This document shows, piece by piece, positions 213 to 60,092 of a stretch of 64,000 nt of DNA. The DNA is from Clostridia bacterium (GTDB lineage Bacteria; Bacillota; Clostridia; Oscillospirales; Acutalibacteraceae), in the NCBI GenBank assembly GCA_017403065.1, contig JAFQOT010000004.1, forward strand, positions 1 to 64,000, in the 5' to 3' direction. The notes under the pieces are model-generated. The model did not search any database. It saw nothing but the letters and a program-made list of their open reading frames with translations, and had not been told where the DNA came from. The position numbers were made by a program, and so were the translations under genes. Each line of letters starts with the position of its first letter. Position 1 is the stretch's first letter.

Positions 213-248
213 GAAAAACTCCTTGTTCGAAAGAACAAGGAGTTTTTC
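213..248 (+). terminator. Terminator after tRNA-Cys
   Basis: A long stem, AAAAACTCCTTGTTC with GAACAAGGAGTTTTT, is closed by a GAAA-type loop and starts one base after the tRNA CCA. The A-tract and T-tract make it usable in both directions. The hairpin array begins immediately after it. Confidence 0.92.
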
Positions 249-426
249 AGTTATATTCGCCTTACGGCGAGTTATATTGAGCTTCGCTCAGTTATATTTG
301 CTTCGCAAGTGATATTGCCCTTCGGGCAGTTAAGGGCGAATATAATATCACTGAAACCGCAAGGTTTCAATATCACTTTCACGGAGTGAAAATATCACTC
401 TGTGCGAAGCACAGAATATCACTAAA
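249..426. repeat. Array of small hairpins with inverted linkers (locus 1)
   Basis: At least seven short perfect hairpins stand in a row: 258-269, 278-290, 298-308, 316-328, 353-368, 377-391 and 400-414. All have tetraloop-sized loops, for example TGAGCTTCGCTCA and GCCCTTCGGGC. On the left side they are separated by AGTTATATT or AGTGATATT. On the right side they are separated by AATATCACT, the reverse complement. The linkers could pair across the centre (about 329-352), giving a long stem with hairpin side branches. The array is non-coding, and related arrays occur near 25690, 38798 and 59815. Confidence 0.85.
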
Positions 427-38686: not shown

Positions 38687-38763
38687 GCGCTGATAGCTCA
38701 GCTGGATAGAGCGTCTGGCTACGGACCAGAAGGTCGGGAGTTCGAATCTTCTTCAGCGCGCCA
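38687..38763 (+). tRNA. tRNA-Arg (anticodon ACG)
   Basis: The acceptor stem GCGCTGA (38687-38693) pairs with TCAGCGC (38753-38759). The anticodon loop CTACGGA carries ACG at 38721-38723; its A34 should be edited to inosine. CCA is encoded at 38761-38763. A terminator and the second hairpin array follow. Confidence 0.97.
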
Positions 38764-38764
38764 G

Positions 38765-38797
38765 AAAAACCGACTTGTTTCGACAAGTCGGTTTTTC
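38765..38797 (+). terminator. Terminator after tRNA-Arg
   Basis: AAAAACCGACTTGT and ACAAGTCGGTTTTT form a 14-bp stem with a TTCG loop starting two bases after the tRNA CCA. Confidence 0.92.
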
Positions 38798-38942
38798 AAT
38801 GAAATTCGTCTTGCGGCGAGTGAAATAGCTTCGCTATGAAATACGTTATGCGTATGAAATACTTGCTTCGCAAATGTTTAAGAGGCGAATTTCATAATCC
38901 GTAAGGATTATTTCATATTTTTCGCAAGAAAAATATTTCATT
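38798..38942. repeat. Hairpin array with inverted linkers (locus 2)
   Basis: The architecture matches locus 1 but the linker differs. On the left, TGAAAT or ATGAAATA separates hairpins such as AGCTTCGCT, TACGTTATGCGTA and TTGCTTCGCAA. On the right, ATTTCAT separates AATCCGTAAGGATT and ATTTTTCGCAAGAAAAAT. Left and right linkers are reverse complements around about 38877-38890. Like locus 1, it begins directly after a tRNA terminator. No coding potential. Confidence 0.85.
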
Positions 38943-39011
38943 AAAAACATGTAGGGGTTTGAACCCATAGGTAAATAATTCAAATGGGTATTAAATTTGT
39001 GCACCCTTTTC
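38943..39011. other. Short non-coding gap between array 2 and the copA terminator
   Basis: No gene is seen. On the minus strand, GGGTTCAAACCCC (complement of about 38952-38964) resembles a tRNA T-arm, but no acceptor or anticodon stem accompanies it. Confidence 0.3.
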
Positions 39012-39042
39012 AAAAAACCAAGTCTTCGGACTTGGTTTTTTT
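39012..39042 (-). terminator. Terminator of copA
   Basis: AAAAAACCAAGTC and GACTTGGTTTTTT form a 13-bp stem with a TTCG loop, ending 6 bp after the copA stop codon. Confidence 0.9.
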
Positions 39043-39047
39043 ATAAC

Positions 39048-59643: not shown

Positions 59644-59656
59644 TTAACCCAAAAGC

Positions 59657-59716
59657 GAGGTGAATATTCACCTCATAAAGATGATAAAAACCACGATGGA
59701 TTTCATCGTGGTTTTT
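59657..59716 (+). terminator. Two successive terminators after the SPFH gene
   Basis: GAGGTGAATATTCACCTC (59657-59674) is an 18-bp palindrome. It is followed by AAAAACCACGATG and CATCGTGGTTTTT (59686-59716) with a GATTT loop and a T-tract. The second is a strong intrinsic terminator. Confidence 0.85.
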
Positions 59717-59807
59717 CTTGTGTTTATCAGATAGAACCAGCATCGCATTTGTAAGTACAAATGCTTTTTGGGTGATACCCAAACCCTTTTACAACAAAGC
59801 AAAAAAG

Positions 59808-60030
59808 TAAGTGATATTCTGTGCTGACACACAGAGTGATATTTTCTTTTGAAAATTCCTCGCCTATGGCGAGATATTTCAAAAAGAAAGTGCTATTACT
59901 CCCTTTAGTCGCAGTGATATTTTATTCGTCACCAAAACTCGCGAAGCGAATACCACTCGGCGTTAGCCGAATATCACTGCGTAGCAATAGAACTCACCGC
60001 AAGGCGAATAAAACTGCGAGACTTCTTTAA
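59808..60030. repeat. Hairpin array (locus 3)
   Basis: Small hairpins such as CTCGCCTATGGCGAG, CGGCGTTAGCCG and TCGCGAAGCGA alternate with linkers AGTGATATT on the left and AATATCACT or AATACCACT on the right. The array is longer and less regular than loci 1 and 2, and it ends with GAAGTCTTGC pairing with GCGAGACTTC. It lies between the SPFH terminators and gtrA and shares a long segment with locus 4. Confidence 0.75.
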
Positions 60031-60092
60031 TGGAAGTCTTGCAATTCACCTCGCTTTTTATATATTTTTTATTTCTAAAAACAAAATTATAT

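Follow-up and report, generated by a model that had tools for sequence, protein, structure and literature searches.

A Gut-1 hairpin array behind a tRNA-Arg terminator is a copy of a dispersed palindromic repeat with a probable PF05635 partner

The hairpin array at positions 38797–38942 of the window (the 64,000-nucleotide stretch of a Clostridia bacterium genome analysed here) is one copy of a repeat that is dispersed, has a sharp insertion boundary, targets terminators, covaries between its two sides, and stands in a clade-matched partnership with genes of the PF05635 family. The reading that we favour, with some reserve, is that the arrays are mostly non-autonomous dispersed palindromic repeats partnered with PF05635, as REPINs are with RAYTs, and working without an HUH nuclease. 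That PF05635 moves the arrays, or enables their movement, is what we infer from this partnership. Loci and genomes are referred to by L and G numbers.

Structure of the array and its place in the Gut-1 family

The array is made up of short hairpins between four TGAAAT and three ATTTCAT linkers (Table 1), the linker pair that had been read in the first-pass annotation, and starts one base past the terminator of tRNA-Arg(acg), in agreement with the placement directly behind a tRNA terminator given there. From 38687 to 39046, the order is tRNA-Arg(acg), terminator, four TGAAAT linkers with their hairpins, central strand, three ATTTCAT linkers with two hairpins, R3 module, and a second terminator-like hairpin; the central strand takes in the first right linker. 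Compared with dinucleotide-preserving shuffles, the array region folded with a z of -4.7 as RNA and -4.5 as DNA, and 0 of 200 shuffles were as good. The array is not a simple palindrome: linker 1 with the 5′ arm of hairpin 1 can pair either with the arm's own 3′ partner or with the central strand. The R3 module, also present at L080, L104, and L105, has within it a palindrome resembling a T-arm (GRGTTCGAAYYC), and some copies can be read as a short open frame (EFEFIRKNGKNTFFVAHS). R3 may have arisen by decay of part of a gene, or it may mimic a tRNA.

Table 1. Features of the array at 38797–38942 and its surroundings, and the other array copies in the window
Feature	Position	Strand	Evidence or remark
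tRNA-Arg (acg), array sits behind	38687..38763	+	ARAGORN; Rfam tRNA
Terminator hairpin (hairpin 0), GAAAAACCGACTTGT-TTCG-ACAAGTCGGTTTTTC	38764..38797	+	arms 38764-38778 / 38783-38797, perfect
Gut-1 match (RF01706), left half of array	38797..38865	+	57.4 bits, gathering cut-off 50
Linker 1 and 5′ arm of first hairpin, ATGAAATTCGTCT	38799..38811	+	two alternative partners; covariation
Left linkers TGAAAT	38800, 38821, 38837, 38855	+	sequence
Hairpin 1, TCGTC-TTGC-GGCGA	38806..38819	+	sequence; Gut-1 alignment
Hairpin 2, TAGC-TTC-GCTA	38826..38836	+	shortest hairpin; GAA triloop on bottom strand; sequence, loop statistics
Hairpin 3, TACG-TTATG-CGTA	38842..38854	+	sequence
Hairpin 4, TTGC-TTC-GCAA	38863..38873	+	sequence
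Central strand, AGGCGAATTTCAT	38883..38895	+	complement of linker 1 and hairpin-1 5′ arm
Right linkers ATTTCAT	38889, 38910, 38935	+	sequence
Hairpin 5, AATCC-GTAA-GGATT	38896..38909	+	GNNA loop on top strand
Hairpin 6, ATATTTTTC-GCAA-GAAAAATAT	38915..38936	+	right linkers 38910-38916 and 38935-38941
Right module R3 (ATGTAGGGGTTTGAACCCATA...AAATTTGTGCACCC)	38948..39006	+	common to other copies behind tRNAs
Right terminator-like hairpin, AAAAAACCAAGTC-TTCG-GACTTGGTTTTTT	39007..39046	.	similar hairpin in L043, L080
Second copy, GTGATATT linker family	248..422	+	directly behind tRNA-Cys terminator (213-248)
Third copy (L021)	about 59651..60058	-	inside terminator-like inverted repeat (AAAAAGCGAGGTGAAT / ATTCACCTCGCTTTT)

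Over its left half, the array matches the Rfam family Gut-1 at full length, with a score above the curated cut-off. Weinberg et al. (2010, PMC2864571) reported Gut-1 from human-gut environmental sequence alone and took it for a probable noncoding RNA; Rfam files it as an sRNA, its function being unexplained there. The Rfam model covers only 77 nt of one arm; in the genomes studied here, that arm belongs to a larger repeat that has two arms, is linked to a terminator, and is partnered by a gene family. The array behind tRNA-Cys also matches Gut-1 (248–320, 59.7 bits, cut-off 50), and the third copy scores 42.3 bits, with an outer repeat score of 18. Two arrays thus stand behind tRNA terminators, as counted in the first-pass annotation, among three arrays found in the window and not the four loci listed there.

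The source genome (1.24 Mb, 99.6% complete) has 39 Gut-1 matches, which come to about 26 arrays once matches to the two arms of one array, a frequent case, are merged. Since only the best candidates were scored, counts of genomes with Gut-1 are lower bounds: at least 53 of 70 in the genus, at least 152 of 394 in the order (78 of 168 genera), and at least 4 of 398 in a phylum-wide sample, including the source genome and one other of the order. Contigs often end within or beside arrays (L011, L012, L159–L161, L169), and copy numbers from draft genomes are therefore probably underestimates.

The differing linker pair of the window array marks membership of another repeat family, and arrays of the TGAAAT family were found behind tRNA-Arg(ccg) in two relatives (G024 and G009). 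The window copy at 38797–38942 is probably an orphan or relic, because the genome's only PF05635 gene belongs to the GTGATATT family. The earlier expectation that linkers would be uniform within loci and different between them holds only loosely, linker type being a family property common to many loci; uniformity is only rough, the first left linker departing from the inner ones in many copies. One array of this genome (L002, G000 contig C8, about 2569–2747) is a chimera whose left linkers are GTGATATT and whose right linkers are ATTTCAT, which points to recombination between arrays. The right end of L002 is common to the neighbouring array L001.

Insertion sites and pairing between the two sides

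Arrays from the source genome and related genomes (163 in total) were oriented. A tRNA or tmRNA gene ended upstream on the same strand in 69 of the 163, with 17 kinds of tRNA as well as tmRNA represented, and 67 of these 69 arrays lay 30–47 nt from the gene, the length of one terminator hairpin. Upstream of many other arrays stood only the final bases of a tRNA, which is what insertion of a larger island between tRNA and array would leave. Near-copies occur in unlike surroundings: L003, L007, and L008 have 91–94% identity over 354–377 bp and differing flanks, and in G423, a genome from another family of the order, arrays 98–100% identical over about 115 nt lie behind tRNA-Gly, tRNA-Tyr, and two tRNA-Leu genes. 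These four tRNA genes have three different terminators (two in common, two others), and where the terminators differ, similarity begins right past the terminator. The 33-nt terminator of the window array also stands behind tRNA-Gly and tRNA-Tyr in G423.

Among 287 similar pairs, similarity began just past the terminator in 110, and another group began at the terminator itself. Because many pairwise similarities begin exactly there, the junction between terminator and array is a real boundary, and because identical terminators stand behind different tRNAs, the terminator sometimes travels too. Targeted insertion behind tRNA terminators, which the first-pass annotation had proposed, is strongly supported by these placements and this boundary.

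By eye, 15 of 25 own-genome arrays examined fell outside the tRNA-terminator class. A TCCTTAAGGA-like centre is frequent in the first hairpin of these non-tRNA arrays, and many of the arrays are flanked by copy-specific inverted repeats resembling protein-gene terminator arms, e.g. AAAAAGATGGTTCGGA ... TCCGAACCATCTTTTT. An outer inverted repeat with a score of at least 14 was present in 10 of 50 non-tRNA arrays, against 2 of 105 in a null with left and right flanks drawn from different loci (p = 7.5e-6), and none was found in tRNA-class arrays tested in the same way. Non-tRNA copies often sit inside protein-gene terminator loops.

Neither a clean empty site nor a target duplication was found. 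At tRNA-Arg(acg), the relatives are too distant to give a clean empty site, though no other relative with a readable locus has a Gut-1 array there. In G007, the same site (L034) carries a very similar terminator and R3 with only the remnant of a different, GATGATATA-like array. This suggests turnover of arrays at a fixed site. Blocks of GAAGATTCGAAC ... AATCTTCTTCAGCGCGCCA, seen behind tRNA-Arg (L033, L037, L045, L051) and before arrays (L061, L078, L111), begin with the tRNA T-arm copied in inverted orientation, followed by an insert and a repeated tRNA 3′ end, and look like another element family using tRNA 3′ ends.

In Gut-1 arrays, the 5′ arm of hairpin 1 scored 6.39 against its own central strand and 4.99 against those of other loci (p = 6.5e-31), and in tandem-repeat relatives the central strand matched the tRNA's own CCA end and terminator arm (11.3, against 6.5 for other loci, p = 8e-9), both p-values being optimistic in that the sequences are related. 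Among 24 GTGATATT-family arrays, position 4 of linker 1 and its central partner were A-T, T-A, or C-G with zero exceptions, and pairing reached 95.8%, where shuffling gave at most 94.4%. Change on both sides is real, and left linker and central strand covary. The idea that both sides change together, put forward from the window alone, thus survives in a more specific form, with arm and linker 1 set against the central strand; copying by palindrome-forming replication, also offered there, is conjectural.

Loops were read from the centre outwards, i.e. on the bottom strand to the left and on the top strand to the right. On this outward strand, GNA made up 129 of 227 triloops and GNNA 112 of 196 tetraloops, against a window background of 16–17%; YNMG tetraloops on the opposite strand reached only 5%. 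Since the third GNNA base is often T or C (48 of 112, 43%), the loops are not of the RNA GNRA class. GNA and GNNA loops give unusually stable DNA mini-hairpins, and the loop pattern favours folded single-stranded DNA over RNA.

The PF05635 partner gene

Behind some arrays, no more than about 100 nt away and on the same strand, lies a gene for a four-helix bundle, which is PF05635, the 23S rRNA-intervening-sequence protein (E 1e-27 for the own-genome gene). Exactly one such gene is present in the source genome, directly behind a GTGATATT array, and the window array itself has none. Clustering of the first gene downstream gave no recurrent family besides PF05635, except for one group of three, which are repeat-rich and secreted-protein-like, and some pairs. 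The PF05635 model (pLDDT 92) matched the structures 2rld (Z 20) and 2gsc (Z 17.7), as well as Avd (8ub8, Z 15.4, rmsd 1.8 over 110 residues; 4dwl, Z 14.8). An alignment of 21 PF05635 proteins had 16 invariant columns, many of them polar (Q37, T43, S44, N48, E51, D60, K64, K70, E71, E74); a mere scaffold would seemingly require fewer, and the protein may therefore have an activity that has escaped recognition.

The genus sample comprised 90 PF05635 genes. A 7-mer in at least four copies was present upstream of 56 of 87, against 1 of 47 control genes (p = 4e-16), and with an equal-length intergenic control and at least three copies, the counts were 64 of 86 and 2 of 30 (p = 7e-11). A separate scan of other phyla (Bacteroidota, Campylobacterota, Treponema, Ignavibacteriales, and some Bacillota) gave at least three upstream repeats for 58 of 80 PF05635 genes (p = 2e-10), a sample biased to Bacteroidota because the scan began from one Bacteroides sequence. 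PF05635 genes are mostly preceded by an array or a tandem-repeat form, both in the genus and in other phyla. An upstream tRNA was on the same strand for 40 of 85 genus genes and on the opposite strand for 1, and the AAGTAATA clade sits behind nine tRNA genes of eight kinds. Genes of the GCGTAATTCG-repeat clade lie directly past the stop codon of seemingly the same upstream gene (L202, L204, L205, L216, L218, L231), and since they occupy apparently the same place in several genomes, this lineage may be domesticated or vertically inherited.

Linkers were read by eye and assigned to 18 regular-expression types, with four labels (L209, L232, L216, L217) corrected from the DNA before the tree was made. 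On the PF05635 protein tree, in which columns are few, many forks are weak, and near-copies add to clustering, linker type took 18 changes (minimum 17), against about 70 for shuffled labels and 76 for the genome label. Different genomes have linker and clade in common, and several clades, with several linkers, can coexist in a single genome; what linker type tracks is PF05635 clade, not genome.

Mean Gut-1 copies per genome were 10.8 with a cognate-type PF05635 gene, 3.8 with another type, and 1.1 with none, in means that come from incomplete sampling, ignore kinship, and include the gene's neighbouring array; up to five arrays were present in some genomes in which no PF05635 gene was detected. 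At L069, in a genome with no PF05635 match (G040), the promoter and ribosome-site region is as before the cognate gene L222 and is followed by an early stop; judged from its sequence, this locus looks like an internal-deletion derivative. As a general feature, a promoter right past the array was weak (16 of 133, against 8.5 shuffled).

Mechanism, rival explanations, and relation to known systems

As proposed here, an element would run from a terminator hairpin through linker-hairpin units, a central strand, and reverse-complement linker-hairpin units to a short right module. Each linker family would have its cognate PF05635 gene, the few copies with the gene directly behind the array being the likely autonomous form, and most copies, being gene-free, would spread in trans and settle past tRNA or tmRNA terminators or inside terminator loops, where harm would be small. 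With its Avd-like fold, PF05635 would bind the outward strand of hairpins and linkers as single-stranded nucleic acid (DNA or RNA) and would be needed for movement, while host enzymes or some unrecognised PF05635 activity would carry out the cutting and copying. To our knowledge, PF05635 has no known nuclease or recombinase activity, which counts against a role as mobiliser, and the match of linker to clade could reflect array and gene travelling as one linked unit, with no specific recognition between them. More tentatively, PF05635 may define a new class of mobile element in several phyla, in which each clade would recognise its own array as folded single-stranded DNA (GNA- or GNNA-loop hairpins) and, with no need of an HUH, DDE, or reverse-transcriptase enzyme, would insert or copy this array past tRNA terminators or inside terminator loops, the rRNA intervening sequences being one branch.

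Gut-1 might be a genuine small noncoding RNA, or a tRNA trailer or attenuator for host regulation, with PF05635 as its RNA-binding partner and mobility incidental. Such a role would agree with its Rfam class of sRNA gene (Weinberg et al. 2010, PMC2864571), with the two mutually exclusive folds and their covariation, and with the closeness of PF05635 (Z 15) to Avd, part of an RNA-protein complex. It is made unlikely by outward-strand GNNA loops with T or C at the third position, unlike RNA GNRA, by halves that are mirror copies on opposite strands, and by about 26 copies in a small genome behind unrelated genes, with presence and absence varying between species. We give rather less credence to growth in place at terminators, through replication slippage and template switching at hairpins and with no transposition: near-identical arrays lie at different tRNA genes in one genome, and 350-bp copies have unrelated flanks, so that movement or gene conversion is needed, even though the palindromic design, the tandem-repeat variants, the L002 chimera, and the degenerate remnant at the tRNA-Arg site of G007 would all suit growth in place.

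An ordinary enzyme, either an IS200-like Y1 transposase or a tRNA-site integrase, could also move the arrays, with PF05635 as a passenger. Single-strand transposases do recognise hairpins, RAYTs are the presumed movers of REPINs (PMC3116915), and one Y1 gene is present in the source genome. This gene (L229, G000 contig C4:187-543, at a contig end) is an ordinary IS200-like Y1 transposase gene in an ordinary setting, and since no array flanks it, the Y1 transposase was set aside as the mover; PF05635, by contrast, is the family that repeatedly adjoins arrays and whose clades linker type follows, which leaves a transposase improbable. The Avd fold of PF05635 would accord with reverse transcription, PF05635 acting like Avd beside a reverse transcriptase, and this we consider very improbable. 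RVT_1 is present in only 17 of 70 genus genomes, and no RVT_1 (PF00078) match was found in the source genome, for all its completeness, or in the array-rich G045, G019, G009, and G064. An encoded PF00078-type reverse transcriptase is largely refuted as the mover by this absence from the source genome and its most array-rich relatives, and is therefore not the engine.

The partnership with PF05635 that we favour resembles the REPIN-RAYT system in several respects: the arrays are dispersed, non-autonomous, extragenic palindromic doublets with compensatory changes, cognate genes are few per genome, arrays cluster beside the gene, and repeat type follows gene clade. They differ in having no GTAG/CGTC tag (the linkers being TGAAAT, GTGATATT, TGATGT, and others), in their partner, which is PF05635 and not a Y1 HUH transposase, the sole Y1 gene having no array at its ends, and in being many-hairpinned and targeted to tRNA terminators. 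With the 23S rRNA intervening sequences (IVSs) that carry the S23 ORF, they have the protein family PF05635 in common, and as IVSs replace an rRNA hairpin loop, so non-tRNA arrays occupy terminator loops. Unlike IVSs, the arrays lie behind tRNAs or in protein-gene terminators and not in a 23S rRNA helix, a multi-hairpin array stands upstream of the gene, and most copies are gene-free. Avd of diversity-generating retroelements has the same four-helix-bundle fold as PF05635, at the Z scores given above, but only 13% identity, and the source genome has no PF00078 match. Like MITEs and the repeats ERIC, NEMIS, and BIME, the arrays are short, gene-free, multi-copy, and intergenic, but their flanking inverted repeats differ per copy and resemble host terminator arms, and the gene paired with them is no known transposase.

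What rRNA intervening sequences and PF05635 do, and whether they move, has been a question for more than 25 years, and a 2016 paper treated IVSs as possible transposition remnants, or as mobile elements that depend on their ORF in order to move (PMC4990558). A literature search covering papers outside subscription gave none tying PF05635 to repeats or arrays; the Gut-1 family is known, but its nature and its tie to PF05635 appear undescribed in the literature searched. With the association between PF05635 and arrays, each protein brings its own candidate DNA substrate, in many genomes, and the clade-matched specificity is directly testable. The Rfam "sRNA" Gut-1 is recast as one arm of a dispersed repeat, and a partner is offered for the short tandem repeats (such as AATTGACAATTGAC) that precede PF05635 genes in Bacteroidota.
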